From: Uranotaenia lowii | Lineage: Eukaryota; Arthropoda; Insecta; Diptera; Culicidae | Direction of reading: 5' to 3' | NCBI RefSeq assembly: GCF_029784155.1 | Contig: NC_073692.1 | Location: forward strand, 161,477,582 to 161,541,581 | DNA length: 64,000 nt | Shown: one piece after another, positions 3,259 to 59,640 of the stretch | Position numbering within the stretch: the stretch's first letter is position 1 | Layout of the letters: each line of letters starts with the position of its first letter | Program-made: the position numbers and the translations under genes | Notes under the pieces: model-generated | What the model was told of the DNA's origin: nothing | The model's input: only the letters and a program-made list of their open reading frames with translations | Databases searched by the model: none

Positions 3259-4925
3259 TATATTCTGTAAAAAAAATTATGATTCGTGAATAAGAACAGT
3301 GCAACACCATTTGTTTTATTTTTTCAACAAAATATTTGAATCTTCTTTTTTTCAAAATTGTTCTTTAAAATATTTCCACAATATTTGCAGGCTCTTATGC
3401 AGATGGTATAGCACTTGTGGCAATTTCGGATGGAAGAAGAATAACTACTTCTAGGTTTAAACTTATACTATGTCTTTGGAACCTCGTTCCACTTTATTTA
3501 TACAAGAAAAGACCGTCAACAGTGGAGGACCTTTCCCACGGCCCTATGCAGCGGGAGAACTAAACTAAGTTAAAGATAAACATAAACTAAGTTAAAGATA
3601 AACATAAACTAAGTTAAAGATAAACACCCGTAAACCCCAGCGTGGGAAACAGAGGGAAATGACTAATTCTAGCCAGGTGGCTGAAGCATAAATTATGCTG
3701 AGCCACACACTTTAGAAAACAAAAATCAAATTATTGACTATACCACTCGTTTATGTCATTTTTGAATTTTGTTTGCCTCAGATTAAATTTAAACAAATCT
3801 TAGCAGACCAGTTTTCAATAAAATTTAACATAAGAAATTTACTTAAAAGTTCAAGTACTTTCACTTAAATCTGTTTAACTTCTGCTACATAACATCAATT
3901 TAAAATTTCTTTTTCTCATATTGAAGGTGAATAAATTTTCTTTCAAACATTTAAACTTCATTTTCACTTAAGAATTTAAGTATTTTCGAATTCATGATCA
4001 ACAAAACGATGAAAAACGATTTTTAGACACGACTAATGCGTTTAATTTTTTTTTGGTTCTTATGAATTTTTATGGTTTATTCAAACCAATGATCTAAACA
4101 GTTTTTACCATAATTAATTAGTATAAAATTGTAGAAGCTATGGTTGTTTTTTCGTAACATAAATGCTTCATTAAGGTTCTATTTAATAATGAAGAAGAAC
4201 TTCAGTGTATAGTACAATGACTAAAATAAGTAAGGGATGAACAAAATATGATGAACCTTACGTGCTGCAGGCTAGCTTGCTATCGATCATTAACAAATCT
4301 CTTTTTGCCAACAATAGGTACTGTTGATTTTTGTAAATTGAAGATCGACAAAAAGATTGAAATGCATTTTTTTGAAAAAAATTCAAATCTATCATAGTTT
4401 TAGACTAGATTCATCCATTTAATATAATTATTTCCAAAAAAACTGTTTAATTCAAATTCAAACAAAAAATTCAAGAGATTATTGAAATAATATATTAATT
4501 TGCCAATATTTAACTTTAAGGATTAGAAAATACTTTTGAAGCGTTTATTTTTACGTTTAAACAGCTCTGTAACGTGTTTAAAAAAATTCGAAAAATTTTC
4601 AAAGTTTTTGATGACATTGCTGAGTTATCAGTTCAATTTAAAAGTATCATTATTTAAAATTTAGATAATTCGCATCTTTGAAATCATGAAACACTAAACA
4701 AAATTATTTTGAAGAATTTAAATAGAAAATTTTAAAAAATATATTTTATATGGAGGTTCACCGACAAAAAAATTAAATTTTTGGTGAAAATGAACCGGAA
4801 AGAAAAAGCTCTACTTTCTGCCTGTGCAAAAATTAGCGTTACTGTTTTTTTTTTCTTTGGGCCCTTCTACGAAACACACTGTGTATTATTTGTCAATTTT
4901 GTGTAACTAAGTTGACCAAGTACAA
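3259..4925. other. AT-rich non-coding DNA with a short tandem repeat
   Basis: Three tandem copies of a unit of about 21 bp (aaactaagttaaagataaac) lie at about 3556-3627. The flanking sequence is less AT-rich (3475-3720) and could be the remnant of an LTR or other element, but I find no paired end. The rest is AT-rich sequence with no feature I can support. Confidence 0.4.
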
Positions 4926-4995
4926 AAGGGTGATACGGTCAAAATTTGGTCAATATTAACTTGACATTTTTCTTTCAATTTTGCATTTAAAAAAC

Positions 4996-5000
4996 CTGAA
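4996..5000. repeat. target-site duplication CTGAA, left
   Basis: CTGAA lies immediately left of the LTR at 5001 and is repeated at 10447-10451 immediately right of the other LTR. A 5-bp duplication is in the range for Ty3/gypsy integrases. Confidence 0.85.
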
Positions 5001-5203
5001 TGTCGAGTCTCCGATTCCGAGAGTAAAGAGCTTCCTATTTCGGTTTTCCACTTCCGTAAATCTTCCGGCGTCACCACTTTTCACGTCCGCTTCTTTTACA
5101 CACTCCCGATAGATTACCCGCCACTTGTACACGCTCATTATCTATTCCTTATTTTTAATACACGATCGTTAAGTTTTAGACATTCTTTTATTAGAACCCT
5201 ACA
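5001..5203 (-). repeat. 3' LTR of the retrotransposon
   Basis: A 203-bp copy identical by eye to 10244-10446. On the minus strand it begins TGTAGGG and ends CTCGACA. An AATAAA hexamer lies just inside its start (5187-5192, minus strand). It carries the same ATG-initiated open frame (from 5138) as the other LTR. Confidence 0.93.
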
Positions 5204-5213
5204 TCCACCCCTT
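5204..5213 (-). promoter_or_regulatory. polypurine tract
   Basis: Read on the minus strand, AAGGGGTGGA directly abuts the 3' LTR, 19 nt after the integrase stop codon. This is the expected place and composition for the plus-strand primer of an LTR retrotransposon. Confidence 0.8.
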
Positions 5214-5232
5214 ACAATAAATGATAATTCAT

Positions 5233-7350
5233 TTAATAAGTTATGTAATCTTTCAAATGCTTGGCTTCAGTTCTTATCCTTTTCGATACAGGTGCACGGC
5301 TTTGGTCATCTTCCGGAAGTTCCGGTGCGTTGTCTTCATCGTTGACTATCTTACTCTTCTCCGAAGATGACGGTACTCCAGAGACATTTTCTGTATCTGC
5401 ATGTACCACCTTCAAGTGAGCAGAACACTTCCTAAATTGTTTTCCCGTTACTGTCGATTGAATCTGAACATCAGCACCATTGCGCTTGAGCACTTTGAAG
5501 ATTTCTGGTGAGAATTCAGAAGACAATTTATTGTCCTTCTTGGTGCGTTTAACCAGAACTCGATCGCCTTCTTTTAAACCGCTCTCCACAGCTCCTCGTC
5601 TTTTATCGGCGTATATTTTACCCTTTTCTTTTTCAATCAAGTCTTGGTCATGTACATCCTCATATATCTTGATTGGATTTAAAGCTGAGGGTAGCTTTGT
5701 TCTCAATTGACGTCCAAACATCAATTCGGATGGTGCTTTGCCAGTTGTAGGGTGAATCGCTGAATGATACATAAGAATATAACGCCGTAACTCTTTACGC
5801 CAATCTTCCCCAAGCTCTTGTGATATGCGTAATCGCTTCAGAATAGAACGGTTCTGGCGTTCAACCTCACCGTTCATCTGAGGCCAGTATGGGATAGAAT
5901 GAACCAAACGTATTCCGTATTCCCCACAAAACAATCGAAATTCTTCTGAAATAAATTGTGGCCCATTGTCTGCCCGAAGACTTTCTGGTAAGCCATATCT
6001 GGCAAAAACGGTCATAAGCTCAATTACAGTTGACGCTGTCGATATGTCTTCCATTTCAATCACCTCCACAAATCTACTAAAATAATCCACGCAAACGAGT
6101 AAATTTTCTCCATTCGGCAATGGTCCCAAAAAATCTACGGCTATTTGTTCCCACGCACGGCTCGGCAGTTGCTTTCTTATCATAGGTTCCGGAGGATTTG
6201 GTGCCGAAACTAAAATGCAACCACGACAGTTCTTTACGAACTCTTCGGCTTGTTGATCCATCTTTGGCCACCATACATGGGTGCGAAGATGACCTTTCAT
6301 GACTCGTATACCTGGATGCCCTTCGTGTGCCAGCTGTAGAACACGCAGGTGAAGTGTTATCGGGATGACGATTCGATCGGTTCGCAAGAGTACGTCATTT
6401 ACTCTACAAAGTTCGCGGAAAATCACTTTATATTGAAGTAATAATCCCTCTGCATTACCTGAAACGAGAGCATCTAATACTTGTTGTATTTCAGAATCGT
6501 TCCTACTAGCATCTTCGATTTCATCCCAGGACAAGGCGATAGCGGAGGCTGCTGCTCCTACGATTTCACGAACTAAAAGCTCATCAGAGTCGTCGAAAGG
6601 TTTCGGCGGAATTGTCGGCAATCTGGACAGGACATCCGCTATATTAGCTGGACCTGGTATATGAATAACTCTGTATTGAAAACCTTGTAGTCGCAGAACC
6701 CAACGCTCAATCCTTGCGCAAGGACGAGATGATGGAGAGAACAAAAACGTTAATGCCTTACAGTCGGTCAACAGATTGAATTCTCGCCCTATCAGGTAGT
6801 TTTGGAAACGTTCTACGCTCCAAACCAGTGCCAACGCCTCTTTCCCGGTTTGGCAGTACCTCTTTTCTGTGTCCGTGAGAGATTTAGACGCAAAGCATAT
6901 TACTCTGGACTCGTTGGAACAGGTTGTTTGTATCAAAACAGCCCCTAATGCAAAAGGACTCGCATCGCACATGACTGAGGTTTCATCTTCTAATTTATAG
7001 AACCCCAGACTTTTGGCACTACCAATACAAGTTTTGATTTTATCGAACGCATTTTGTTCTGCGTCACCCCATTTGAATGATACTCCCTTTTGTGTCAATT
7101 TCCTCAACGGTTCGTCTAGCTCAGCCAAATTAGGCACAAATTTACTCATATAATTTGCCAGACCTAAGAAACTGCGTGTTTCACTTTCGTTGTGTGGCGT
7201 ACGAAACGTTAGAACTGCATTTTGTTTGGCAAATGATGGAAGAATGCCGTTAGTCGAGATATGATAACCGAGAAAATCAAACTCAGTAACGCGAAATTTG
7301 CATTTTTCCGAATTGAGTACAACACCACGTTCCTTAAAGCGTTGTAAAAC
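5233..7350 (-). CDS. pol: Pol exon 4: end of RT, RNase H, integrase
   Basis: Open for 705 codons on the minus strand from 7350 (the proposed intron 3 acceptor) to the stop at 5233. The ATG at 7149 is internal, because the upstream part already encodes RT thumb/connection motifs such as SEKCKF, FLGY and FLGLANYM. Counting from that Met, RNase H shows CDAS (D62), E104 and TDCKAL (D129), then ADVLSR. Integrase shows an HHCC zinc finger (about 275-311), catalytic D339 and D394 (DNGPQF), and E430 in a DD35E arrangement. A basic C-terminal tail ends at KRIRTEAKHLKDYITY. No internal stops are present, so all catalytic residues for RNA degradation and cDNA integration look intact. It lacks its own start codon in the proposed spliced form and continues from exon 3. 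Confidence 0.9.
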   Translation of the reverse strand, partial: VLQRFKERGVVLNSEKCKFRVTEFDFLGYHISTNGILPSFAKQNAVLTFRTPHNESETRSFLGLANYMSKFVPNLAELDEPLRKLTQKGVSFKWGDAEQNAFDKIKTCIGSAKSLGFYKLEDETSVMCDASPFALGAVLIQTTCSNESRVICFASKSLTDTEKRYCQTGKEALALVWSVERFQNYLIGREFNLLTDCKALTFLFSPSSRPCARIERWVLRLQGFQYRVIHIPGPANIADVLSRLPTIPPKPFDDSDELLVREIVGAAASAIALSWDEIEDASRNDSEIQQVLDALVSGNAEGLLLQYKVIFRELCRVNDVLLRTDRIVIPITLHLRVLQLAHEGHPGIRVMKGHLRTHVWWPKMDQQAEEFVKNCRGCILVSAPNPPEPMIRKQLPSRAWEQIAVDFLGPLPNGENLLVCVDYFSRFVEVIEMEDISTASTVIELMTVFARYGLPESLRADNGPQFISEEFRLFCGEYGIRLVHSIPYWPQMNGEVERQNRSILKRLRISQELGEDWRKELRRYILMYHSAIHPTTGKAPSELMFGRQLRTKLPSALNPIKIYEDVHDQDLIEKEKGKIYADKRRGAVESGLKEGDRVLVKRTKKDNKLSSEFSPEIFKVLKRNGADVQIQSTVTGKQFRKCSAHLKVVHADTENVSGVPSSSEKSKIVNDEDNAPELPEDDQSRAPVSKRIRTEAKHLKDYITY

Positions 7351-7467
7351 CTATTGCCGGAAAACAACAAGGAAAAACCAAAATAAAAATATGAACCTTT
7401 AAGATGGAGTTTATTTATTTAATTGATGAATAAAAAATACAAGAAAACAGTCGAGCTTCTTCTATAC
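7351..7467 (-). other. candidate spliceosomal intron 3 (117 nt) inside the RT gene
   Basis: Minus-strand junctions read AAG|GTATAG ... AATAG|GTT. The interval is AT-rich, carries a stop codon (TAG at its 5' end) and ends in a T-rich tract before AATAG. Exact removal joins LNK to VLQRF, the usual continuation after the YLDD motif of gypsy-type RTs. It has no terminal inverted repeats. The 5' site is only a fair match to GTRAGT. A chance insertion that happens to be bounded by GT and AG is the alternative. Confidence 0.65.
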
Positions 7468-8529
7468 CTTGTTCAGCCGCATATCGTGTTCCTCTTCAGA
7501 GCTTCCTTGAACGCCAACATCATCTAGGTACCAATAAGCACCTTCGCAGTCGGCCAAGATGCCGTCGATAACTCGTTGAAAACATTCGGGGGCCGAGACG
7601 AGCCCGAACGGAAGTCGCTTGAACTGGTACAACCCACGGTGTGTTATGAAAGTTGTCACTTGTCTACTGTCCTCGTGTAATTCTAGCAAAAAGAATGCGT
7701 CCTTTATATCTAAAACACTCCACAAGCGTCCTTTTCCTATTTTAGCAATGATATCATCGATGATAGGCATTGGGTGTCTTTCTCTGACGACCGCCTGGTT
7801 GACGCGACGTAAATCAACACACAATCGTATTTGCCCATTAGCTTTCTTGGCTACAACCAAAGGTGATACCCAAGTGGTGGGTCCAGTTTTCTCCTCAATG
7901 ATATCCCTGGCTAGCAAATCGTCCAGCTTTTTGTTGACTTCACTTTCCAGCGGAATGGGTATTCTACGTAGCGGTTGGAATACTGGTGCCACATTGGGGT
8001 TCATGACTATCTGTATTTGTACATCCTTGATTTTTGAGAAAGGTTGCATTGCACTTTCGCTTGTCACTTGGTTAATGTTCGATCCTACTATCAATACACC
8101 TAGCTGTTTGGATGTAAAATCCCCCAAAAGGTTGCGCTGTCCTTTAGCAATCACGAGAAATTCCGCTTGTGCACTTCGTTTGCCGACTTCAATAATTGCA
8201 TGGAAAGTTCCAAGAATTACCAAAGGATTGTCACATCCATACGCTTTTAAAACCTTGTTGCTTCCTTTAGTGCAACGCTCCACTCTGACATTATTCGCCT
8301 TTAAAAACTCCCATGTATCCGATGTGATCAAATTTGCATCTGAGCCAGAGTCAACAAACAAATCAATTGGTACTCCACCAATATGGCACACGATTTCATT
8401 TGATTTGTTTCCAGTATAAAATGTGTAGTAGACCTTTTGCTCTTCTTGAGAAACTTCTTTTTCGACATCTTGTTGCTCAGGTTTCTCTTCGTTGGATTGG
8501 TTGATTGACATTACTGAGGTAGACATGCC
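7468..8529 (-). CDS. pol: Pol exon 3: aspartic protease and reverse transcriptase
   Basis: 354 codons, from GGC at 8529 (after the proposed intron 2 acceptor) to AAG at 7468. An ATG lies at 8526. Counting from that Met, the protease active site is FVDSGSDANLI (DSG at 59-61). RT follows from about residue 180, with SPLVVAKK, RLCVDLRRVN, FKRLPFGLVSAPECFQRV and the catalytic YLDD at 333-336. Read without splicing, the frame stops at 7462, 17 residues after YLDD, which would leave the RT without its thumb. The gag frame differs from this one, so Pol needs a frame change or the 67-nt intron to be joined to Gag. Confidence 0.9.
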
Positions 8530-8596
8530 CTGGGAAAGGATTTAATTAACATAATTATCATGAAATGTGTTATGGAAATAAATTCACCAAGATTAC
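8530..8596 (-). other. candidate spliceosomal intron 2 (67 nt) between gag and pol
   Basis: Minus-strand junctions read AAAAAG|GTAATC ... TTAATTAAATCCTTTCCCAG|GGC. The size is typical of short insect introns. The 3' end has a possible branch point (TTAAT) about 20 nt upstream and a good pyrimidine tract. The interval holds the gag stop codon (8570-8572) and is not a multiple of three, so its removal both deletes the stop and shifts into the pol frame, in phase 0. This is the best-supported of the three introns. Confidence 0.78.
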
Positions 8597-9493
8597 CTTT
8601 TTCGATGTACGTTGATCTTGCATATGACAAAATTGTCTATTGACTGTCTGCCTACGACAGACATTTTCCGAGTGATCAAATGCATTGCATCTTGGACAAC
8701 GTTTTCCTTTTGCTGGACAATTATAAGACTTGGCAATATGTCCATAACCGCCGCAACCATAACATAAAATCTTAGATTCCGGTCGGTCACTTGCTGCTTG
8801 AAATTTGTAGAAACGATTAACGACTCTATTTTGTTTCTTATCAAATCTGTACGGTCGCGATTGAATCTTATGAACATCTAGTTGATTCTTATCGTGAAAA
8901 CCTGTAGCATGTTTGTTCATTTCGCTCTCCTGTATCTTGACACTTTCAAATGACTGGCCAAGGGCTTCAATTTCAGCTAATGTTCTATCCTTTTCGAAGA
9001 TTTTACGTCGTAGATCCAGAGAAGTACATCCTTCAGCTATGCCGTCCGTAAGGAGAATTTCTTCCAAAACTTCTCGTACTTCGAGGGAGTATTTTTCGAG
9101 ACCGCAATCTTTGATTTGCTGACGTAAACGCAATACAAAATGTCCAAAACGTTCATTCGAGCCTTGTCTTATTTCACGCAACTTATGTCGTTCCAAAACA
9201 TCTTGCCTCTGTGGTTTAAAATAAGCATCCAAACAATCCACGGCTACGTTGTACCACGGTTTTTCGATTAAGACCGTAGCAAAACTTTCGGTTCCCTCGA
9301 GACTTCGAAAAACTTTTTGCAATTGTGGTCCACCGAGATGAAGCATTTTGGCTCGCATTAGTTTCTGATCCGTAATTTGGCATGACTCAAAATAGCACTC
9401 TAGAGCTCCTCTCCAATCAGCCCATTCCTTTGCCAATTTACTATTTTCGATCTGCTCACAACGGAACATTGGCAAAGCACGGCTCTCATCCAT
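8570..9493 (-). CDS. gag: Gag (unspliced form), exon 2
   Basis: 307 codons from ATG 9493 to a stop at 8570; the last nine codons lie in proposed intron 2, so the spliced exon is 9493-8597 (299 codons). The N-terminal two thirds resembles a gypsy capsid in layout (W-rich start, then LRLRQQIKDCG and related helices). The C-terminus has two zinc knuckles, a variant CX2CX4HX6C and a canonical CX2CX4HX4C, at about residues 243-282, for RNA binding. The ATG directly follows TTTTGTTTTAG, itself an acceptor-like sequence, with TACTAAT upstream as a possible branch point. Gag alone would therefore be made from RNA in which intron 2 is kept. Confidence 0.88.
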   Translation of the reverse strand: MDESRALPMFRCEQIENSKLAKEWADWRGALECYFESCQITDQKLMRAKMLHLGGPQLQKVFRSLEGTESFATVLIEKPWYNVAVDCLDAYFKPQRQDVLERHKLREIRQGSNERFGHFVLRLRQQIKDCGLEKYSLEVREVLEEILLTDGIAEGCTSLDLRRKIFEKDRTLAEIEALGQSFESVKIQESEMNKHATGFHDKNQLDVHKIQSRPYRFDKKQNRVVNRFYKFQAASDRPESKILCYGCGGYGHIAKSYNCPAKGKRCPRCNAFDHSENVCRRQTVNRQFCHMQDQRTSKKVILVNLFP

Positions 9494-10210
9494 CTAAAAC
9501 AAAACATTCAATTAGTATCCACTTCAGAATCTATTTTTGTTCACTTCGATACTTTAATTTTTCTTTAAAAACCATGTGAAAATAATTCGCATGTTCTCGT
9601 ACCATACATTATGCTTCCTATCAAGATATTTATAGCCACTGATTTTCATTTGTCGGACCCCCTAGCCTCTACGCTCATGAACAGGACCCCCTAGCCACTG
9701 TTGTTTAATTTTGTTTTTCGGGCCCCCTAGTCACAGTCTACATCAACAGGACCCCCTAGCCACTGTTGCTAATTCTTTCCATTTCCGGGCCCCCTAGCCT
9801 CGACGCTTATGAACAGGGCCCCCTAGCCTCGACGCTTATGAACAGGACCCCCTAGCCACTGTTATTCCTCTCATCGGGCCCCCTAGCCACGAACTCCATT
9901 AACAGGACCCCCTAGCCACTGTTGTTCTTTCGGTCATCGAGCCCCCTAGCCACGACAATCAGCAACAAGGCCCCCTAGCCACTGTTGTCACTTCTTTAAG
10001 AAACTTATCCTGAAGCGGGCCCCCTAGCTTCGCTCGTTAGCAATCATATATTCAATAAAAAACTTCCATCACTACCGTTCTCATTATTCTACAATGATTG
10101 CCGAACGCGTTTTTTCATTTGAAAATTAAAATCTAACCTAACTTAGTGTATGCAGCAAACAAGAAAAAAAAATTCCTAATCCTCGAAAATGTATTCAAAA
10201 ATAAACTTAC
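9494..10210 (-). other. candidate intron 1 (717 nt) in the retrotransposon leader
   Basis: The minus-strand 5' site is AAC|GTAAGTTT, a full GTAAGT match, starting 31 nt past the LTR edge at 10244 and 18 nt beyond the primer-binding site. The 3' site is TACTAAT...GTTTTGTTTTAG|ATG at 9494. Exon 1 and gag are in the same phase across it (phase 0). It contains the 12-copy CTAGGGGG array. Without splicing the leader is long and has several in-frame stops. Confidence 0.65.
9653..10038 (-). repeat. 12-copy CTAGGGGG array in the retrotransposon leader
   Basis: The + strand octamer CCCCCTAG starts at 9658, 9687, 9724, 9753, 9790, 9819, 9848, 9879, 9908, 9942, 9971 and 10020. Six of the eleven steps are exactly 29 nt; the others vary from 29 to 49. 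Two flavours alternate: one reads 'ggaccccctagccactgtt', the other 'cgggccccctagcc' followed by variable bases. In the first flavour the octamer is bracketed by AACAG and CTGTT (CAACA and TGTTG in the copy at 9971), so the RNA could form short stem-loops showing the octamer in the loop. The second flavour contains GGGCCC, a self-complementary hexamer. Role unknown: packaging, dimerisation, export and insulator functions are all possible. Confidence 0.85.
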
Positions 10211-10381
10211 GTTGAGTTTCGTATTACCCTCCTCGTCGCCAGTTGTCGAGTCTCCGATTCCGAGAGTAAAGAGCTTCCTATTTCGGTTTTCCACTTCCGT
10301 AAATCTTCCGGCGTCACCACTTTTCACGTCCGCTTCTTTTACACACTCCCGATAGATTACCCGCCACTTGTACACGCTCAT
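10211..10381 (-). CDS. proposed exon 1: 57-codon N-terminal extension starting in the LTR
   Basis: An open frame begins at ATG 10381 inside the 5' LTR, crosses the LTR edge at 10244 and the primer-binding site, and reaches AAC at 10211, where GTAAGT follows. It encodes a charged peptide of 57 residues (starting MSVYKWRVIY, ending EGNTKLN) and joins gag in phase 0 if intron 1 is removed. The ATG is only about 65 nt from the LTR start, so transcription would have to start very close upstream. A small upstream ATG with a quick stop precedes it. The alternative is that translation starts at ATG 9493 and this frame is untranslated leader. Confidence 0.45.
10231..10241 (-). promoter_or_regulatory. 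primer-binding site, tRNA-Ser type
   Basis: Two nucleotides past the 5' LTR the minus strand reads TGGCGACGAGG. This is complementary to a tRNA 3' end of the form CCTCGTCGCCA, which from memory is the end of insect tRNA-Ser(GCU). Mag-clade elements are known to use tRNA-Ser primers. Confidence 0.75.
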
Positions 10382-10446
10382 TATCTATTCCTTATTTTTA
10401 ATACACGATCGTTAAGTTTTAGACATTCTTTTATTAGAACCCTACA
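10244..10446 (-). repeat. 5' LTR of the retrotransposon
   Basis: 203 bp, identical by eye to 5001-5203. It must hold the promoter. A TATTAAAAAT stretch lies about 30 nt upstream of the ATG at 10381 on the minus strand and could serve as a weak TATA-like element. Confidence 0.93.
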
Positions 10447-10451
10447 CTGAA
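10447..10451. repeat. target-site duplication CTGAA, right
   Basis: Matches 4996-5000 and is followed by transposon A sequence (ATTTTAAAGGTGTGTGTTTAG), aligning to the equivalent place in transposon C at about 15875. Confidence 0.85.
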
Positions 10452-10527
10452 CACCCCTCATTTTAAAGGTGTGTGTTTAGAATGTTGCTCCTATTTTGAT
10501 TTTGGAATTCACTCTTCAGTTGTCAAA

Positions 10528-11512
10528 ATGCCGTCCAAGGAAGAAGAGCAGCGTATCAAAATTTTGCTCACGCATCGCGAAAATCAGAGCTACTCGCATG
10601 CAAAGCTGACAAAATCGCAAAAAGTTGTCAATTCGACCATTACAAATGTAATTAAAGTGTTAAGGGAACGGTTGTCGACAGCCAGGAAGTCTGGATCGGG
10701 GGGAAATCGGAAACCGGAAGCCGCTAAAACGACAAAGAGAGTTGCTGGTAGTTTCAAGCGAAACCCTGACCTCTCTCTCTCCGAGATGCCGCAAATAAGA
10801 TGGGTGTATCGTCTACAACCATGCATCGAGCCAAAAAACCGAGCTGGACTATCGACTTACAAGAAGGTAGTGACACCAAATCGCGATGATAAACAAAATA
10901 CGACGGCCAAAGCGCGATGCCGGAGGCTGTACACGACGATGCTGACGAAGTTTGACTGCGTGGTAATAAACGACGAAACCTACGTCAAAGCCGACTATAA
11001 GCAGCTTCCTGGACAGGAGTTTTATACGGCAAAAGGAAGGGGAAAGGTGTCAAATATTTTCAAGTACATGAAATTGTTAAAGTTCGCGAAGAAATATCTG
11101 GTTTGGCAAGCCATCTGTACCTGTGGCTTGCAGCATTTTCATAGCTTCCGGGACTGTCAACCAAGAAATTTACGTGAAAGAGTGTTTGAATAAACGTCTG
11201 CTGCCTTTCCTGAAGAAACACGGTTGTTCCGTACTGTTTTGACCGGATTTGGCATCTTGTCATTAAGGTAAAAAGACCATGGAGTGGTACGCCGCCAACA
11301 ACGTGCAGGTAGTTCTCAAAGACAAGAACCCTCCCAACACGCCAGAGCTCCGCCCAATTGAGAAATACTGGACTATTGTCAAGCGGAACTTAAAGAAGAC
11401 CAAAAAACTGCTAAGGACGAGCAGCAGTTCAAGGCAAACTGGCTTTCTGCGGCGAAGAGGTTGGACAAGGTGGCTGTACAAAATCTGATGGCAGGGGCAG
11501 CGTAAGGCCCGG
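10528..11512 (+). pseudogene. transposase of element A, broken
   Basis: Starts MPSKEEEQRIK at 10528, the same start as in element C. It keeps an N-terminal HTH-like region and the first catalytic Asp context (NDETYVKAD, where C has MDDETYVKAD). Breaks compared with C are a small insertion in the CTCTCT run near 10780, a deletion near 11126 and a TGG-to-TGA change at about 11240. The last third is readable in another frame (TPELRPIEKYW at about 11340-11370). The 3' end is cut by the 310-bp insertion at 11526. It cannot make an active transposase. Confidence 0.88.
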
Positions 11513-11927: not shown

Positions 11928-13219
11928 AAGTCTGCTTCATTTAATATTGGAACACAAACAATTGCGTGTAGTTCAGTCATTTATTAACGAATTCATAATT
12001 TGTTTTTCATACAAATGTAGCATTTTCTTTACTCTTTCATAAAAAAAAATTAAAAAAATTATTCATTGCTGTTTCGAAGAAATTTTCGTACTTTTCCCGT
12101 AATACGGCACATTAGGCGGCGCACACCCTTTTCGTCCACCGTTTTGGCGATTTGATTCCACCAGTTCTTCATTTGAGTCATGTTCCTAACAAGTTTTCCC
12201 TTTGCCTTGAGCCTCCGCTTCGTGATTGCCCAGTATTTCTCTATCGGCCGGAACTGGGGGCAGTTTGGGGGGTTGAGGTCCTTCGGTATTACGCTGACCC
12301 CGTTCGTTGCGTACCATTCCATAACCGTTTTGCTGTAATGGCAGCTTCCGAGGTCCGACCAAAACATTACTGGACGGTCGTGGGCACGAATAAACGGCAG
12401 AACCCGTTTCTGTAGGCACTCTTTTTTGTAGACTTCTGATGTCATTGTCTTGTCAGTGAGAAAGACTTTGGTTTTCTGTCCACAACTGCATATCCCCTGC
12501 CAAATCATGTACTTGCGGGCGAATTTATCCGCAAACACGAACTTAAATTTTGCAGGTACATCCCCCCGAGCCGTCGCCAAATAAAATTTTTGACCTGGGA
12601 TTTGCCCAAAGTCCGCCTTCACGTAGGTCTCATCGTCCATCAGAATACATCCGTCGAACTTGGTCGTACAGCTTTCGAGCACGGATTCTGGCCACATTGT
12701 TCTGCTTCAGCGTCCGATTTGGCTGTTTGTTGGCTCGGAATGACCTTATTCCTTCCCGGAGACGAATTCTTTGCACCGTACTGTGAGCGGCCTGGAACTT
12801 ATTGGCCAAATCGCGGTCTGAAAGATTGTGATTCCTCTTGACGGCCTTGATGACATTCCCACGCAGTTTCCGGTCGACAGTTCCACTCCGACGCTTCGAA
12901 TGCGCCTTCCGAGCCGTCGTCAATGTTTCCTTGTACTGCTTGATAACACGCCATACGGTATTTCTGGGCATTTTAAGCTGTTTAGCTAGCTTCGATGCCG
13001 ACAACAATGGATTTTCAAGAAAACTGTGCACAATTTGATCTCTCCGTTCGGCTTCCATGGCGGTTGTTTACAAAATGCTATCGTTTGGTGTTATGACATA
13101 AATACATGGTGAAAGGTAATGAATTTCCCGACACGTGGGGGAAAAAAGTTTCCAATTCGTCCACTAGGAGCGCCACAATGAGCAAAAGAATTTGTTCCAA
13201 TATTAAATGAAGCAGACTT
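11928..13219 (-). mobile_element. ITmD37E-type transposon B, nearly intact
   Basis: 1,292 bp with TIRs identical over at least 27 bp (starting AAGTCTGCTTCATTTAATA) and TA duplications at 11926-11927 and 13220-13221. It sits in the tail of element A; removing it joins 'tttttttagta' to 'aacgatttcac', matching element C. Its TIRs differ from those of A and C, so it is a separate subfamily. Confidence 0.93.
12059..13058 (-). pseudogene. transposase of element B, one small deletion
   Basis: On the minus strand, ATG 13058 opens a frame to 12630 with paired helix-turn-helix regions (SASKLAKQLKMPRNTVWRV and SDRDLANKFQAAHSTVQRI). A second frame (12697-12059) continues with MDDETYVKAD, FWSDLGSCHY and RPIEKYWAITKRR. 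Thirty-seven residues separate the second Asp and the Glu (DD37E). The two frames are offset near 12670. Alignment to element C (CTGTAC...AAGTT) suggests a deletion of about 11 nt between KLYD and KFDG. Otherwise full length (about 335 residues). The protein would bind the TIRs and carry out cut-and-paste transposition; as read it is frameshifted. Confidence 0.9.
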
Positions 13220-13508
13220 TAAACGATTTCACCGATTTACACGCGTTTTCTCTTGACCAAATTTTGACCGTATCACCCTTTTTTTCAGAATAAAGACGTT
13301 TTCGATTTTTTTTTATGTTCTGTTGCCTATTTTGAGAAAAAACGACGTAATAGAAAGACTATTGAACCAATGAATTGAACCAATGAATTGAAATTGAGGA
13401 TAAAGTTTGATTTTTTCCAGTGTAGGTCAGTGAACTTTGTAAAAGTTTTCCATGAAAAAAGCGGGACATTATGGGGAAAAAGCGGAACAGCGGGACATTC
13501 AAAAAAAA

Positions 13509-16052: not shown

Positions 16053-17965
16053 GAGCAAGTTCACTGGTTGAGATGGAGTTGGAAATTTCGAAGGTTTACA
16101 ACACATCACAACACATTTCCCGTACACCGGTGTTGGGAAAATCTGATATTCGAACAGTTTCGCGCTGCAAAATTTGTATCGTATAACACTTTTTGGCTGA
16201 GGGTGATATAAAAACACGATGTTTTGCAACACCGAACCGAGTGATAGAGTCGGCGTTGCAATACAGTATTCGTGCATGAAACGCTTAGGTGCTGCCATCT
16301 ATCTTATGCTCAAAACCTCAGTTGAGGGGAAAATAAAGGAAATTGAGCAATTTCAGGATTAAAACATAAAGTTATATTTTCTTTTTTTTTTTTTAATCTT
16401 TTATCACTTAAATTGATACGAATTGCAATGAAGTTAATTAACTCTTTAAAACTTACAGCCAATTTTTTTCATGCCCTTGCCAATCGAATAGATTTTGAGG
16501 CGCAGAGATGCCAGATAGCTGTGTGAATAAATAAATTCTGTTGGTATGTTTTGTTTGAGCCGTTTTCGGGAGTAGGAAATTGTTTCGCTTTTTTATTTGA
16601 AAAAGATATTCCGTCGGAATGTACGGTAACAAGTTCAGAACGCCGTCTTTAATGGATCCATCATCTTAAGAAAACGGAACCCTCGCTGTTGATTCGACAA
16701 GTGTCAATCATATCAAACGTAAGGCGTCGTATCGGGAGTAAAATTCAGCTTGTGTCTGAAATATCTATACTTTTTATTTGTCACTTACTTAATTATCACT
16801 TTGAAAATGAAAGTTTTAGAAAGAGTTCAAAAACTTTATCAACTCGTGTTATCAAATGCACTCCAATACAAAACTCCTAATTCTGCAGAATACATTTTAA
16901 TATTGGGATGCATTATAACTTAAGGGGGGGGTAGGGTCTAACGGGTATAAAAAAACACCATTTTCACGATTTTTTTCTAGAGCTATCGTTCAAACAAATG
17001 TATTCAAATTTCTTGCATTATACAAAGCATTGTTAAAAGAACATTTAGTAATTTTTTCGTAGAAAAATATTGAAAAATGAGCCGGTGACGGAACATTTTC
17101 GAGGATGCCTTTTAGAAAACAGGATTTGCGGTGGACACTGTATCTCAGCACAGAATTATCTGAAGTCAAAAAATCAGAGCAAAATATTTTTAATAGATGT
17201 TTTTCTGGACCCCAACGTTTTTATTTAACTTAAAAATATTTTTATGAAATTTTTGTGGCTGTTTGAAGTAAAAACTACGATTTTTCACTTAAAAATCCGC
17301 CATTTTTCACCTGTAAAATCTCCCCAAAGTAAAAAAATCAAAAAAGAAAAACGTTGGGGTCTGGTATTTTATATGTAGAAAATATGTTCCAAATTTGAAA
17401 AGAATCGGATAAGTAGTTTTCAAATGACGGTGTCCACGGACTTTAAAAATGTGCTTTCGAGAAAAACGCGTTTAAAGTTTCTGCTCTTGCTTTCTTGCAG
17501 TATTAGATAGGAGGAGATAAAGGCCTATAACTTCTACAGTTTTGCTTCAATTGACTTGAAAATTTGACACAACATTCTTGAAATGTTTTACAATAAGAAA
17601 ATAAAAAAATAAAAAAATCGATTTTTTGAAAGTGTTAGACCCTACCCCCCCCTTAAACAATACTTATTCATACATATAACTAATAAAATTTTCATATTGG
17701 CACTACTATTTCAAGTTAATGATCAAGTAAAATGAATTTGATTTCAATTTTCAAACGGTGAATTCAAAATACAAATAGTCAGTAAAATTACTGAAAAGCA
17801 AATTCTCTTGGCATCGCTGGTTGCTTTCAATTTTATACCTTCGTATTCTATCACACCGGTGGACGGCCAAGCTTTTTGGTCTATATTTCACGATAGAAAA
17901 ATTCCCATCTGTGCTACAGACGTCAAAATTCCTACCACTTTTTCCCAACACCATTGGACTTGCTC
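16053..17965. mobile_element. TTA-flanked element D, non-autonomous
   Basis: The ends GAGCAAGTTCACTGG and, inverted, GAGCAAGTCCAATGG form a TIR of about 15 bp with two mismatches, flanked by TTA at 16050-16052 and 17966-17968. Element A shows the empty site (CCATTACAAAT). A 3-bp TTA duplication is typical of PIF/Harbinger elements (family knowledge). No transposase ORF. About 1.18 kb once element E is removed. Confidence 0.75.
16924..17652. mobile_element. TTAA-flanked element E inside D
   Basis: Inverted ends GGGGGGGGTAGGGTCTAAC are flanked by TTAA at 16920-16923 and 17653-17656. TTAA duplication is the hallmark of piggyBac-type transposition. 729 bp, no ORF. An internal inverted pair (GGACCCCAACG near 17212 and CGTTGGGGTC near 17352) lies in the middle. 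Confidence 0.82.
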
Positions 17966-18873
17966 TTACAAATGTAATTAAAGTGTTTCGGGAACGTTTG
18001 TCGACAGCCAGGAAGTCTGGATCTGGGGGAATTCGAAAACCGGAAGTCTCTGGGACGACAAAGAGAGTTGCCGGTAGTTTCAAGCGAAACCCTAACCTCT
18101 CTCTCCGAGATGCCGCAAATAAGCTGAGTGTATCGTCTACAACCGTGTATCGAGCCAAAAAACGAGCCGGACTATCGACTTACAAGAAGTTAGTGACACC
18201 AAATCGCGATGATAAACAAAATACGACGGCCAAAGCGCGATCCCGGAGGCTGTACACGACGATGCTGACGAAGTTTGACTGCGTGGTAATGGATGACGAA
18301 ACCTACGTCAAAGCCGACTACAAGCAGCTTCCGGGACAGGAGTTTTATACGGCAAAAGGAAGGGGAAAGGTAGCAGATATTTTCAAGCACATGAAACTGT
18401 CAAAGTTCGCGAAGAAATATCTGGTTTGGCAAGCCATCTGTACCTGTGGCTTAAAAAGCGGCATTTTCATAGCTTCCGGGACTGTCAACCAAGAAATTTA
18501 CGTGAAAGAGTGTTTGAATAAACGTCTGCTGCTTTTCCTGAAGAAACACGGTTGTTCCGTACTGTTTTGGCCGGATTTGGCATCTTGCCATTACGGTAAA
18601 AAGGCCATGGAGTGGTACGCCGCCAACAACATGCAGGTGGTTCCCAAGGACAAGAACTCTCCCAACACGCCAGAGCTCCGCCCAATTGAGAAATACTGGG
18701 CTATTGTCAAGCGGAATCTAAAGAAGACCAAAAAATCTGCTAAGGACGAGCAGCAGTTCAAGGAAAACTGGCTTTCTGAGGCGAAGAAGTTGGACAAGGT
18801 GGCTGTACAAAATCTGATGGCAGGGGTTAAGCGTAAGGCCCGGCAATTCGGATTTGGAAAAGCGGAAGCCTAA
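17821..18873 (+). CDS. chimeric ORF: D-derived start fused to intact DDE domain of C
   Basis: 350 codons. The first 49 or so come from the end of element D; the rest, from TNVIKV at 17969, is the transposase of C. The catalytic region is complete: MDDETYVKAD, FWPDLASCHYGKKAMEWY and NTPELRPIEKYW, with 37 residues between the second Asp and the Glu (DD37E). A second helix-turn-helix remains (SLRDAANKLSVSSTTVYRAKK), while the first DNA-binding helices are lost. Probably a relic kept open by chance, since its ATG is an accident of the insertion. Expression is unknown. Confidence 0.7.
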   Translation: MLSILYLRILSHRWTAKLFGLYFTIEKFPSVLQTSKFLPLFPNTIGLALTNVIKVFRERLSTARKSGSGGIRKPEVSGTTKRVAGSFKRNPNLSLRDAANKLSVSSTTVYRAKKRAGLSTYKKLVTPNRDDKQNTTAKARSRRLYTTMLTKFDCVVMDDETYVKADYKQLPGQEFYTAKGRGKVADIFKHMKLSKFAKKYLVWQAICTCGLKSGIFIASGTVNQEIYVKECLNKRLLLFLKKHGCSVLFWPDLASCHYGKKAMEWYAANNMQVVPKDKNSPNTPELRPIEKYWAIVKRNLKKTKKSAKDEQQFKENWLSEAKKLDKVAVQNLMAGVKRKARQFGFGKAEA

Positions 18874-29095: not shown

Positions 29096-29757
29096 CGACT
29101 TACATTTTACGACGTAAGACGAAATACGAAAGACGTAAAACGTAAGACATAAGACGTAAGACGTGAGACGTAAGATGAAAGACGAAAAACGTAAGGGGTA
29201 AGACGTTAGACGTAAGACGTAAGACAGTCTTACGTCTAACGCCTTACGCCTTACGTCTTTCGTTTTTCGTCTTATGTCTTACGTCTTACGTCTTTCGTAT
29301 TTCATCTTACGTCTAACGTCTTACGTCTTACATCTTATATCTTACGTCTTACCTCTTACGTCTTACGTCTAATGTCTCACGTCTTACATCTAACGTCTTA
29401 CCTCTTTCCTCTTACGTCTTACGTCTATTGTCTCACGTTTTACGTCTTACGTCTATTGTCTCACGTTTTACGTCTTACGTCTCACCTTTTACGTATGACG
29501 TCTTACATCTGACGTCTTACCTATTACGTCTTACGTCTTACGTCTAATGTCTCACGTCTTACATCTTACCTCTTACGTCTTACGTCTAATGTCTCACGTA
29601 TTACGTCTTACGTTTCACCTCTTACGTCTTACGTCTTACGTCTTACGTCTTACGTCTTACGTCTTACGTCTTACGTCTTACGTCTTACGTCTTACGTCTT
29701 ACGTCTTACGTCTTACGTCTTACGTCTTACGTCTTACGTCTTACGTTCTACGTTTGA
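29096..29757. repeat. TTACGTC 7-bp satellite with inverted centre
   Basis: About 29112-29225 reads GACGTAA-type units and 29227-29757 reads TTACGTC units, so the array turns over near 29226 and could form a long hairpin. The segment 29618-29745 is an almost uninterrupted run of about 18 perfect units; outside it the units vary (ATGTCTC, ATCTTAC). The 71-codon ORF here is the repeat itself. Confidence 0.92.
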
Positions 29758-47454: not shown

Positions 47455-49885
47455 ATTGGCATAGGAAGCGCAGATTTTAAAGGCTGCTGCAGCTGAATGT
47501 TTGTTTGATTTGGCCTTTAAGTAAAAGAAGACGAATTGACATAGAAAGCGCGGATCCTCCTAAAATAAAAAAGAATTGGCTAAGGGATCGCAAATTTTAA
47601 GGCTGCTGCTGCTGATTGTTTGTTTTTATTTGGCCTTCCGATAGATAAATACGGAGTTGGCTTAAGAAGCAAAGATTTTGAGCTTGCTGCTGCTGATTGT
47701 TTTTTATATGACGGATTGGCTTAGAAAGCGCAGATTTTTAAGGCTTTTTAAACCTGATTGTTTGTTTTGATTTGGCCTTCCGATGGATATAAACAAAATT
47801 GGCATAGGAAGCGCAGAATATTAAGGCTGTTGCAGCTGATTGTTTGTTTGATTTAGCCTTCCAGTAGAAGAAGATGAGTTGGCTAAGGAAGCGCAGATTT
47901 TTAAGGCTGTTGCAGCTGATAATTTGTTTTGATTTGACCTTCCAGTAGAAAAAGATGGATTGGCTAAGGAAATGCAGATTTTTAAGGCTGTTGCAGCTGA
48001 TTGTTCGTTTTGATTTGGCCTTCAAGTGGATTAATACGGTATTGGCTTAGTTTTTAACTCCTCACAAAAATGAAAAAAGGAATTGGCAAAGGAAGCGCAG
48101 ATTTCAAGCCTACTGCTGCTGATTGTTTTTTTTATATGACAGATTGACGGACTGACTTAAGAAGCGCAGATTTTAAAGGCTTTTTAAGCCTAGCTGTTTG
48201 TTTTGATTCGGCCGTCCGATGGATATATACGAAATTGGCAAAGGAAGCGCAGATTTTTAAGGCTGTTTCAGCTGATTGTTTGTTTTGATTTGGCCTTCCA
48301 ATAGAAGAAGATGGATTGGCTTACGAAACGCAGATTTTGAAGGCTGTTGCAGCTGATTGTTCGTTTTGATTTGGCCTTCAAGTGGATTAACACGGAATAG
48401 AATTAGTTTTAAACTCCTATTTAAAAAGGATTTGGCTTAGGGAGCGCAGATTTTTAGGCTACTCTTGCTGATTGTTTGTTTTGATTTGGCCTCCAAGTCG
48501 ATGAAAACGGAATTGGCTCAGGAAGTGCAGATATTTAAGGCTTTTCAAACTATTTTATTTTGATTTGGCCTCCCGGTAGATAAATATGGAGTTGGTTAAG
48601 AAAGTGCAGATTTTAAGGCTGCTGCTGCTAGTGATTGTTTGATTTGATTTGGACTTCCGGTGGATAAATACGGAGTTGGATTAAGAAACACAGATTTTAA
48701 GGCTGCTCCTTAAGCTGACTGTGTGTTTTGATTTGGGATTGGCTTAGATTTAAACTCCTATCCGAAAAGAAAAGAAGAATATCTAAGGCTGATGCAGTTG
48801 ATTGTTTGTTTTATTTAGCTTTCCGGTAGAAAAGACAGATTGGCAAAGGAAGCGTAGATTTTTAAGGCTGCTGCTTCTGATGGATTTTTTTTATGTGACG
48901 GATTTACAGACTGACTTATGAAGCTCAGAATTTTAAGACGAATTGTCATAGGAAGCGCAGATTTTGAAGGCTGTTGCAGCTGATTGTTTATTTTGATTTG
49001 GCCTTTCGATGTTCCCTGTGAATTAATACGGAATTGGCTTAGAAAGCGCAGGTTTTTAGGGCTGCTGCAGCTGATTGTTTGTTTTTTTTTTGTTGGTCTT
49101 TCGGTAGAATAAGAAGGATTGCCTCAAAAAGCTCAGATTTTTAAAGCTTCGGTTGTGGATTGTTTGTTTTGATTTGGCCTTTTGGTGGAAAAAGACGGAA
49201 TTGGCTTAGGGAGCGCAGAATTAAAGGCTGATTGATTTTATTTGGCCTTCCGGTAGATAAAGGCGGATTGACTGAGGAAGCTCAGATTTTAAGGCTGCTC
49301 CTGCTGATTGTTTGTTTTTGTTTAGAAAAAGACGAAATTGGCTTAGGGAGCGCAGAATTAAAGGCTGATTGATTTTATTTGATCTTCCGGTAGAAAAAGA
49401 CGGATTGACTGAGAAAGCTCAGATTTTAAAGCAGTTTCTGCTTATTGTTTATTTAAAATTGGTCTTCCGGTGGATAAATACGGAATTGGCTTAGGAAGCG
49501 CTGATGATTTAGGTTGTTGCAGCTGATTGTGTGTTTTGAATTGGCCTTCCGATGGATAAATACGTAATTGGACAAGGAAGCACAAATTTTTAAGGCTGCT
49601 GCTGCCCCTGCTCGTTTTTTTTTTGATTTGGTTTTCTGGTAGAAAAATACAGATTGACTAAGGAAGCTCAGTTTTAAAGGCTGCTGCTGATGATCGTTTG
49701 TTTTGATATGGCCTTCCGGTAGAAATAGACAGATTGGCTTAGGAAGCACAGAATTTAAGGCTGCTGCTGTTGATTGATTTGATTTGGCCTTCCGGTGTTA
49801 AATTGCAGATTGGCTTAGGAAGATCAGGCTTTAAGCCTGCTGCAGCTGATTGTTTGTTTTGATTTGACCTTCCGGTGGATTAATA
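47455..49885. repeat. 2.4-kb minisatellite, unit about 80-100 bp
   Basis: Roughly 25-30 diverged copies of a unit running 'gaattggcttaggaagcgcag', 'attttaaggctgctgcagctg', 'attgtttgttttgatttggc', 'cttccggtggataaatacg'. Unit length varies by deletion and small insertion; adjacent copies differ by point changes. The ORFs here (47738-48025 and 49453-49749, minus) are translations of the repeat, with recurring KSKQTISCNSLK-like text, not genes. Confidence 0.9.
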
Positions 49886-57475: not shown

Positions 57476-59357
57476 TATTTTATTTACATAGTGTTCCGTC
57501 TTACGACATAACTTGACGAACATAATTCCTTAAATTCACTCGGTCCATGGCAACCGTTCTCCGATTCCTCGGGCACCCCACGTTCGCCAGATCACGCTCC
57601 ACTTGGTCTAACCACCTCGCTCGATGCGCCCCCGCTCGTCTTGTTCCTACCGGATTCGTGGCGAACACCTGTTTTGCAGGACAGTCATCCGGCATTCTCG
57701 CAACATGTCCCGCCCAGCGTATCCGGCCAGCCTTCACCACCTTCTGGATACTGGGTTCGCCGTAGAGTCGCGCGAGCTCGTGGTTCATCCTTCGCCTCCA
57801 CATTCCGTTCTCCTGTACGCCGCCAAAGATGGTTCTTAACACTCGTCGCTCGAATACTCCGAGTGTAAGCAGGTCCTCCTCGAGCAATATCCATGTCTCG
57901 TGCCCGTAGAGAACAACCGGTCTAATAAGCGTCGTATACAGGTTACACTTCGTGCGAGGGCTAAGTCTTCTCGACCGCAGTTGCTTCTGGAGTCCATAGT
58001 AGGCACGACTTCCGCTGATAATTCGCCTCCGGATCTCACGGCTGGTGTCATTGTCTGCGGTCACCAGTGAGCCGAGATAGACAAAGTCTTCGACTATCTC
58101 CAGCTCGTCGCCGTCGATTGTGACCTTGTTATTACTGGACAAGCGGGTTCGGGCCAGCATGTACTTCGTCTTGGACGTATTAATCATCAACCCAATCCTT
58201 CCTGCTTCGCGTTTCAGTTTGCGGTAGATCTCCTCCACCGCCGCAGATGATCTGCCGACTATATCAATGTCATCGGCAAAGCAAATAAGTTGACTGGATC
58301 TGTTGAAAATCGTGCCCCGCATTTCGCCCACCGCTCGTCGAATAACACCTTCTAGCGCCACGTTGAACATCATGCAGGATAGACCATCACCTTGTCGAAG
58401 CCCCCTGCGAGATTCGAATGAACTCGACAATTCACCCGAAATCCGCACACAGCACTGCGTTCCATCCATCGTCGCCTTGATCAGTCTGATCAGCTTCCCG
58501 GAAAAGCCGTTCTCGTCCATGATTTTCCATAGCTCGTTACGGTCGATCGTGTCGTATGCGGCTTTGAAGTCGATGAATAGATGGTGCGTAGGTACTTAGT
58601 GTTCACGGCATTTTTGGAGGATTTGCCGTAATGTGAATATCTGGTCCGTCGTAGACCGTCCCTCCATAAAGCCGGCCTGATGACTTCCCACGAATCTGTT
58701 TGCTTGTGGCGTTAGGCGGCGGAGTAGGATTCGGGACAAAACTTTGTAGGCGGCATTGAGGACAGTGATCGCTCGGTAGTTCTCACAGTCCAATTTGTCG
58801 CCCTTCTTGTAGATGGGGTATATTACCCCCTCCTTCCACTCCTCCGGTAGCTGTTCAATGTCCCAGATCCGGATTATCAACCGGTGTAGGCAATCGGCCA
58901 ACCTGTCCGGGCCCATTTTGATGAGTTCAGCTGCGATGCCATCCTTCCCAGCCGACTTGTTTCTATTCAGCTGGCGAATGGCTTCCTTAACTTCACTCAT
59001 CGTTGGGAGTGGCTCGTCTTCGTCGTTGGCTACGCCGGCGATGTACCTTCCCCCACCGTCTTGATCTCCTGCATGTGTGCCGTTCAGGTGTTCATCGAAG
59101 TGCTGCTTCCACCTTTTCATCACCTCACGATTGTCCGTCAGGATACCCCCGTCCTTATCCCGGCACATTTCGGCTTGCGGCACGAAGCCTTTGCGGGATG
59201 CGTTGAGTTTCTGATAGAACTTTCGTGTTTCTTGGGAACGATGCAGCTGCTCCAGCTCCTCGAGCTCCTCCTCCTCCAGGCGGCGCTTTTTCTCCTGGAA
59301 AAGTCGGACTCGCTGCCTCTTCCGCTGTCGGTGATTTTCCACATTTCGACGGGTGCC
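57476..59357 (-). mobile_element. RTE/JAM-like non-LTR retrotransposon, 5'-truncated
   Basis: A 13-bp duplication TTTCCAGAACTAT flanks the insert (57463-57475 and 59358-59370). The 3' UTR is only about 25 bp and ends in a TAAATAAAATAATA tail, as expected for RTE-type elements. The 5' end is truncated inside the reverse-transcriptase frame. Confidence 0.88.
57501..59357 (-). pseudogene. RTE-like reverse transcriptase, single nonsense codon
   Basis: One open frame on the minus strand from the truncated 5' end to the stop at 57501, broken by one TAA at 58596-58598; both sides are in the same frame. RT landmarks are NKSAGKDGI, PIYKKGDKLDCENYRAI, GFMEGRSTTDQ, then FKAAYDT, RGLRQGDGLS and the catalytic FADDID, followed by the C-terminal domain ending NLRNYVRQVM. 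The endonuclease domain is missing by truncation. Together with the short 3' tail this places it near the RTE/JAM group. Dead on arrival because of the truncation, whatever the stop codon does. Confidence 0.9.
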
Positions 59358-59640
59358 TTTCCAGAACTATAAGTTTTGTAAAAATCGGTTGAGGAACAAG
59401 AGAGATATGGCGGTTTTAAGCGAGGAGTGTTAAATTGACACTCAAGGTATGATTAGTGAGTTTTTATCCTGGTCTTCCAGGGGGCGTCCATAAAAAAGTA
59501 ATGATTTAAAATGAAAAACTTCAAGAATTCATTGCGGGTCCCCAAGGAAAATGTTTTATTTGGATGCATCCGACTAAAGTTACAAGCCGTCAAACTTCCA
59601 GTAGTGTCATATTGTCACTCAAGAGCGGATTAGGGTTAAT

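Follow-up and report, generated by a model that had tools for sequence, protein, structure and literature searches.

The stretch analysed here, called the window, comprises 64,000 nucleotides of the genome of Uranotaenia lowii, a mosquito of the subfamily Culicinae (contig NC_073692.1, positions 161,477,582 to 161,541,581). Near its start, on the minus strand, lies a long terminal repeat (LTR) retrotransposon whose transcribed region is interrupted by three putative spliceosomal introns. Retrotransposons pass through RNA and are hence expected to lose introns. The parts of the element are given below from its 5′ to its 3′ side, with the basis of each assignment in brackets; here and in the text a slash marks an exon boundary.

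5001..10446, minus strand: whole Ty3/gypsy-type LTR retrotransposon, 5,446 bp (LTR pair, domains, copies)
10447..10451: upstream copy of the target site duplication (TSD), TTCAG (sequence)
10244..10446, minus strand: 5′ LTR, 203 nt (LTR pair)
10230..10241, minus strand: primer binding site (PBS) TGGCGACGAGGA, two bases past the 5′ LTR (motif recurring in families)
10211..10446, minus strand: exon 1, the 5′ LTR plus the PBS, probably 5′ untranslated region (UTR) (copy comparison)
9494..10210, minus strand: intron 1, putative leader intron, 717 nt, AAC/GTAAGT .. TTTTAG/ATG (donor and acceptor comparison)
9649..10038, minus strand: 12-unit hairpin array with core CTAGGGGG, inside intron 1 (repeat and fold analysis)
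8597..9493, minus strand: exon 2, Gag, 299 codons, with a zinc knuckle (open frame, weak domain matches, relatives)
8530..8596, minus strand: intron 2, 67 nt, phase 0, between Gag and protease (PR) (comparison, gene model P0241)
7468..8529, minus strand: exon 3, PR and reverse transcriptase (RT) to 17 residues past the YLDD motif, 354 codons (frame, domains)
7351..7467, minus strand: intron 3, 117 nt, phase 0, inside RT (comparison, gene model P0008)
5233..7350, minus strand: exon 4, end of RT, RNase H (RH) and integrase (IN), 705 codons plus stop (frame, domains)
5204..5213, minus strand: polypurine tract AAGGGGTGGA before the 3′ LTR (by eye)
5001..5203, minus strand: 3′ LTR, 203 nt (LTR pair)
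4996..5000: downstream copy of the TSD, TTCAG (sequence)

The two LTRs are 100% identical over 203 nt and have TG..CA ends. Together with the TSD and with Pfam matches to RT, RH and IN above cut-offs, they bear out the first-pass annotation of this locus, made from the letters alone, which had described an LTR retrotransposon with identical LTRs; its coordinates, GT..AG ends and lengths for the three intervals (717, 67 and 117 nt) match ours. Of the domain motifs that it had listed, those of RT, RH and IN are secure, and those of PR and Gag are weak and below cut-offs, as is the match to a zinc knuckle. The domain order PR-RT-RH-IN is present, with PR resting on that weak match, as in Ty3/gypsy LTR retrotransposons, and the closest solved relative of the RH-IN piece is Ty3 Gag-Pol. 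The PBS, a candidate match to tRNA-Ser, occurs shortly behind the 5′ LTR in four families, with one base different in copy L010; no tRNA genes were found in the window or in the 34 loci scanned. The element is a young one that may still be mobile.

A whole-genome search of U. lowii, in which 40 of 107 first-look candidates were scored, yielded four LTR-bounded copies of the family: the window copy, L009 (C3), L010 (C2) and L011+L012 (C1). A further locus, L013, has an LTR, the remainder of the element being absent from the stretch retrieved. The four copies are flanked by four different 5-bp TSDs (TTCAG, CCACC, CAGGG and GTGCC), have private LTR variants, each common to both LTRs of the same copy, and differ between their own LTRs at 0/203, 3/216, 1/216 and about 4/215 positions (the last alignment being offset by one base). 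L009 has about 200 bp inserted within its protease region (position 2557-2756); it is the source of the U. lowii record P0241, a Gag relative at 97% identity, and this gene model ends at the insertion. The C1 copy has two insertions, one of about 5.3 kb in pol and another of about 0.3 kb ahead of the 3′ LTR. Introns 1, 2 and 3 are kept in 4/4 copies with identical splice sites; introns 2 and 3 each differ by 0–1 nt between the window and L009 or L010, and by 3/67 and 0/117, respectively, in the C1 copy. The earlier proposal that the introns had survived transposition is strengthened by these four copies with distinct TSDs, all of which have the three intervals; full-length copies free of the intervals, which its author had named as contrary evidence, were absent from the copies found.

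The first-pass annotation had taken exon 1 for an N-terminal coding exon of 57 codons. In the window copy this frame, whose ATG lies in the LTR, is indeed open. The copies L009 and L010 have one additional base, found in both of their own LTRs, that shifts it into stops, and in L012 it is in phase and interrupted by a stop; a 57-codon coding exon 1 is rejected on these broken frames. Because the frame is broken in all three other copies, exon 1 is probably a 5′ UTR, with Gag starting directly past intron 1; the coding sum, previously put at about 1,415 codons, is then probably 1,358 (299 + 354 + 705, all open). The assignment of phase 0 stands for introns 2 and 3, at which the junction residues are TSKK/GMS and RLNK/VLQ. 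Among related families, L022 and L023 are without an in-phase ATG in exon 1, and L017, L019 and L020 have a different, 50-codon frame that runs from another ATG in the LTR into gag. This second frame is stopped in L018, a member of the same family; there is some chance that it codes for an N-terminal Gag extension in the other three.

In 10/10 loci, representing the window family and five others, the Gag methionine codon is directly preceded by TTTAG, TTCAG or TGCAG, so that the acceptor of intron 1 is present in all six families compared. Four families yielded a donor of the form AAG/GTAAG or AAC/GTAAG, 12–23 nt beyond the PBS. With a YAG before the Gag ATG and a strong donor past the PBS, intron 1 is therefore identified as a putative leader intron. 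Between the LTR start and the Gag ATG there are 18 ATGs in the unspliced sequence and 2 in exon 1.

The 12 units inside this intron have an invariant core, and 88% of cells are paired in a nine-pair hairpin, as opposed to 28.7-56.5% with the pairing partners slid. The covariation score of this structure, which was derived from single-unit folds, is 0.360 versus 0.245 (sd 0.040) for shuffled units and is reached in 3/500 shuffles, and 11 cells are changed on both sides, a number reached in 6/500; kinship of repeat units can raise such scores. Long-stem hairpins are also in excess in the leaders of L022 (16 versus a shuffled mean of 5.15, maximum 11) and L014 (9 versus 3.35, maximum 7), where many are repeated and the loops bear G; L017 and L027, with 4 each, show no excess over shuffled means of 3.75 and 4.95. 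We propose the G-loop hairpin array as a possible packaging signal, because it lies downstream of the PBS and the donor, would be present only in unspliced RNA and has G-rich loops, and because of the pattern of locus L028 described below.

To follow intron 3 across families, exon pieces were aligned by tblastn to 12 + 19 further loci of the same genome, 31 in all, of which 28 could be read on both sides of the intron 3 site (L016, L029 and L040 were unreadable there). In 23 of the 28, including L009 and L010, a 94-145-nt GT..AG interval follows RT codon 354 exactly and ends where the next exon starts; it is absent from L028, L038, L039, L041 and L042. When the interiors were compared among eight families, only L014/L030 and L017/L027 shared 18–30 nt, and the others gave no match at an E value of 0.001. 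The intervals are beyond chance, because the intron 3 boundary recurs at the same codon while the interiors are mostly unalike. A fortuitous pairing of GT and AG is excluded on these grounds.

Database relatives echo this boundary. Among 120 PR-RT relatives listed, of 186 above cut-off, the open reading frame (ORF) ends within 12 residues of the intron 3 site in 82, namely 46/64 lgn/ena rows, taken as raw contig ORFs, and 36/56 gene models; the length limits of this search exclude proteins of more than about 628 residues, so that the counts are no frequency estimate. Sixty-one of the 82 stop within one residue of the donor codon, and in the window copy an in-frame stop is the second codon of the intron (GTA TAG). 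One-residue stops at this frequency seem more than chance would give, and a possible use of retaining intron 3 is to terminate the protein immediately. The best 120 of 1,778 matches to the downstream piece, a search in which both interrupted and continuous kinds could appear, include 71 with RT directly upstream and 49 without; P0067 and P0085, two of these 49, fall in the outgroup, and P0031, P0043 and P0056 fall in the R213 subclade and are probably mislabelled. The downstream ORFs P0015, P0030 and P0055 read through a stretch whose last residue, immediately ahead of the boundary, is Q, as expected of a pyrimidine tract ending in CAG. No relatives were found in viral contigs in two scans.

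From an intermediate set of 105 rows (67 clade-side, 10 of the outgroup rows and 28 loci), 48 were used for an IQ-TREE phylogeny of the RH-IN region, in which a 41-row clade (support 100/100) unites the window with every intron-bearing row. Both deep subclades (support 100/99 and 97/89) contain intron 3. Its presence on the tree needs five changes, which we read as one gain and four losses; this direction presupposes that the continuous outgroup shows the older state, and for database rows we assigned the state from ORF ends alone.

Two NCBI gene models agree letter for letter with the predicted junctions: P0008 (L022) with that of intron 3, where 719/719 downstream and 30 upstream residues are identical, and P0241 (L009) with that of intron 2. 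Considering (i) the GT-AG ends, (ii) the precise presence or absence among relatives and (iii) the same codon site across families, the three intervals are very probably real spliceosomal introns. It is correspondingly very improbable that they remain unspliced and that the parts of Pol arise by frameshifting, readthrough or internal initiation. The length of intron 3 is a multiple of 3 in 5/8 families (117, 111, 120, 114 and 114), as such a mode of expression might have it. Yet the gag and PR-RT frames of the window do not overlap (8570 vs 8541), intron 3 stops at its second codon and the downstream exon begins mid-RT. In addition, the GT..AG ends persist among interiors that are mostly dissimilar, two gene models place splices at these positions, and one copy is without exactly the interval. 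A gag-pol frameshift is excluded for this copy, as its frames are not overlapping.

That one copy is L028 (C1:14039700-14047500), a member of a related family. From gag to IN it agrees with L027 at about 99%. Where L027 has an intron 3 of 120 nt, L028 shows the exact exon-exon sequence; it has an uninterrupted 1,351-codon gag-to-IN frame and retains its repeat-filled leader intron. The intron-less copies that the first-pass annotation had suggested looking for are thus represented by a locus precisely free of intron 3, and of that one intron only. L028 begins about 105 nt inside the LTR and ends about 28 nt before the position of the L027 3′ LTR; no 3′ LTR and no paired LTRs were found for it, and it is possibly not a normal insertion. 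The pattern is as would be expected from copying of a partly spliced RNA that kept the leader intron, and a deletion between AGGT repeats gives the same product. A 4-nt microhomology deletion of this kind, which would make L028 silent on splicing, seems to us the less probable origin. AGGT does occur on both sides of the L027 intron and paired LTRs are missing, but the stretch lost is exactly the intron, leaving the 1,351 codons open, and most AGGT-type deletions would be expected to miss the intron bounds.

Of 18 comparisons, 11 gave a value of dS and hence a ratio of nonsynonymous to synonymous substitution rates (dN/dS). These 11, each of which pairs related families, place dN/dS for gag, PR-RT and IN at 0.02-0.09; with dS at 0.95-3.1, the ratios are rough. 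The exons of related intron-bearing families are under strong purifying selection, and because exon 4 begins mid-RT, selection on it makes its joining to exon 3 likely. Selection on all exons is hard to square with the proposal that copies with introns lack autonomy and depend on intronless relatives for movement in trans, which we regard as highly unlikely. Relatives continuous through the intron 3 site do occur outside the clade, and the uninterrupted frame of L028 would suit a helper; on the other hand, the intron 3-bearing loci L017-L020, L022 and L023, with 99.6-100% identical LTRs, have long aligned exons, and the families differ in LTR and leader.

Introns at further sites are restricted to particular families. 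In gag, one at site g111 occurs in L015 (83 nt), L016 and L037 and is shortened in L035, and one at g180 occurs in L017 (66 nt), L018-L021 and L029. In RT, R235 occurs in L014 (82 nt) and L024; R149 is found in L034 (91 nt) and L036; and R213 is 188 nt long in L038 and L039 and about 144 nt in L041 and L042; these are the two own-genome families that lack intron 3, and each is interrupted at this other place in RT. Database ORFs ending at LDIKDAF/LQV suggest another candidate, R285; the contigs of P0205 and P0018 are both 4,991 long. All 14 introns compared are GT..AG and follow an exonic AG, and 13 precede G; the R213 intron of L041 precedes A. Uninterrupted counterparts were found for g180 in L027, L028 and L022, for g111 in L014 and L030, and for R235 in L015 and L030; in the other loci tried, no empty site was matched within the mismatch limit. 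Seven loci of four other families have a gag-PR stretch that is open in the absence of intron 2, and a pattern search for the empty site of intron 2 returned weak matches only, at unrelated places. Introns thus appear, from these comparisons, to have come and gone repeatedly within the clade.

A direct repeat of 9 nt brackets the g180 intron, and repeats of 2-6 nt the other introns. At gag codon ~180, L017 and its sisters have the repeat TAGGTGAGT, and the intronless L027 has the single form GGGTGAGT, an arrangement reminiscent of target duplication. Introner-type introns are transposing introns with near-identical copies elsewhere in the genome. The seven introns tested here showed no mutual similarity, so that a common origin is unsupported, and matched only their own families among the loci examined and the window.

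Combining these findings, we consider it probable that, in a spliceosome-dependent mosquito clade of Mag-like Ty3/gypsy elements, spliced RNA is the messenger and unspliced RNA the genome. Transcription would start in the 5′ LTR. Splicing of the leader intron would join the 5′ UTR to the Gag AUG, splicing of intron 2 would fuse Gag to PR, and splicing of intron 3 would complete RT and add RH and IN to give a Gag-Pol mRNA. Intron-keeping RNA would lack a complete Pol, its reading in this copy being halted at intron 2, once Gag is complete, and at intron 3, within RT, and intron retention may help to set the Gag:Pol ratio. Unspliced RNA with the leader hairpins would enter particles and be reverse transcribed; the introns would survive transposition because the packaged RNA is the unspliced form. 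We infer, as had been suggested at the outset, that splicing may be a built-in control of the element. This is favoured because the leader intron bears hairpins and because the two own-genome families without intron 3 have another intron in RT.

Several observations weigh against this model. The lgn ORFs P0032, P0037, P0042, P0045 and P0059, which lie in the clade, are unbroken from the Gag/PR region to IN, and the coding intron may not be obligatory, unless those five contigs derive from RNA. If L028 was copied from RNA spliced at intron 3, as may be the case, exclusion of spliced templates is not absolute. The two gene models that splice at introns 2 and 3 perhaps reflect prediction only, 36/56 gene models read into the intron 3 donor and stop, and dS could not be computed in 6/6 comparisons involving the window family (7/18 overall). 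As for the hairpin array, 4 pairs are changed on both sides versus 3.4 in shuffles (reached by 215/500), the pair types number 12 versus 10.2 (reached by 81/500), and the 431-nt repeat stretch 9630-10060 folds no better than shuffled sequence (z -0.49, 26/100 as good).

Part of this evidence would also suit introns that are spliced as harmless passengers, with templates unspliced for reasons of packaging or export and splicing controlling nothing, a view that we think rather unlikely. Like neutral insertions, the family-specific introns (intron 2, g111, g180, R235 and R149) differ between close families, and L028 is open from gag to IN without intron 3. Passengers would not be expected to show intron 3 in both deep subclades, a different RT intron in the two own-genome families without it, a leader acceptor in all six families compared, or in-frame stops at most one residue from the donor codon in 61/82 relatives, a count that comes with no chance expectation. 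We retain as the best model the one in which spliced and unspliced RNAs have separate roles.

Among elements described previously, the Mag lineage of Ty3/gypsy in Culex quinquefasciatus is similar in that its LTRs are mostly ~140-300 nt, its TSDs mostly 5 bp and many of its elements near 5 kb, and in that three elements carry tandem repeats in their 5′ UTR (PMC3286476); the short LTR, 5-bp TSD and leader repeats of the window element resemble these. It differs in that the available text of that survey describes no element-internal intron or splicing, and split RT frames might lie behind the 1-3 ORFs that it tabulates. Ogre, a Ty3/gypsy element of legumes, likewise has an intron and its RNA is spliced, between ORFs, according to the accounts that cite it (PMC3735527, PMC12786077). 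Here, by contrast, intron 3 lies inside RT, 17 residues after YLDD, there is one leader intron, the families differ in additional introns and the host is an animal; splicing between ORFs as in Ogre does not describe intron 3, although intron 2 does sit between the Gag and PR frames (PMC3735527). BARE is described as having separate RNA pools for translation and replication, like those proposed here, and in copia and BARE1 splicing removes or disables pol to give Gag, whereas here it would complete pol (PMC3735527). The exon ends at introns 2 and 3 are in phase with the next Pol exon, in contrast to Gag-only splicing of the copia/BARE type. Cer1, a Ty3/gypsy element of C. elegans, has splice sites and an unspliced RNA that needs export, but in the portion of the report available its gag/pol comes from unspliced RNA and its spliced mRNA encodes an export protein (PMC10309623).

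Splicing of the retroviral env type finds no counterpart in the window element, whose pol stop is 29 nt from the 3′ LTR and which has no env ORF. Copies of Penelope-like elements, a class different from LTR Ty3/gypsy elements, retain spliceosomal introns. No report of introns in the gag-pol of insect LTR elements was found in the open literature, as judged on titles and abstracts, and the available texts mention no gag-pol intron in the LTR elements of Anopheles (PMC3026039) or bdelloids (PMC5408684).

The retrotransposon may have a DNA transposon as its target, as suggested by perfect 30-nt inverted arms at 4924-4953 and 13253-13282, which point to a larger such element. A transposase-like ORF at 10438-11193 (plus strand), with the retrotransposon just upstream, resembles by eye a 364-aa frame at 17779-18873; DDE_3 matches the latter weakly and gives no match at 10438-11193. 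A second transposase-like gene at 12059-13067 (minus strand), with helix-turn-helix and weak DDE_3 matches, is split over two frames. Elsewhere in the window are a reverse transcriptase, apparently non-LTR, in two adjacent ORFs at 57501-59366 (minus strand) split at 58595/58596, about 74 copies of the heptamer GTCTTAC at 29227-29746 in a strong-skew stretch at 28-30 kb, and degenerate tandem repeats of ~67-84 bp and longer at 47715-49876, beside strong GC skew at 48-50 kb.

The apparent repeated gain of introns is the most surprising feature of this clade. Tentatively, and with more doubt than confidence, we suggest that a clade using splicing as a switch in its life cycle is also a hot spot of spliceosomal intron gain: there are seven sites beyond the leader intron, nearly all AG/G, perhaps created when host introns were reverse-spliced into element RNA and then fixed in DNA by the RT of the element. 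The interrupted and uninterrupted pairs at g180, g111 and R235, together with L027/L028, provide before-and-after sites within one genome. With its conserved intron inside RT, its leader intron and its apparent new introns, the clade opens to test both how a retroelement separates its genome RNA from its mRNA and how new spliceosomal introns arise.

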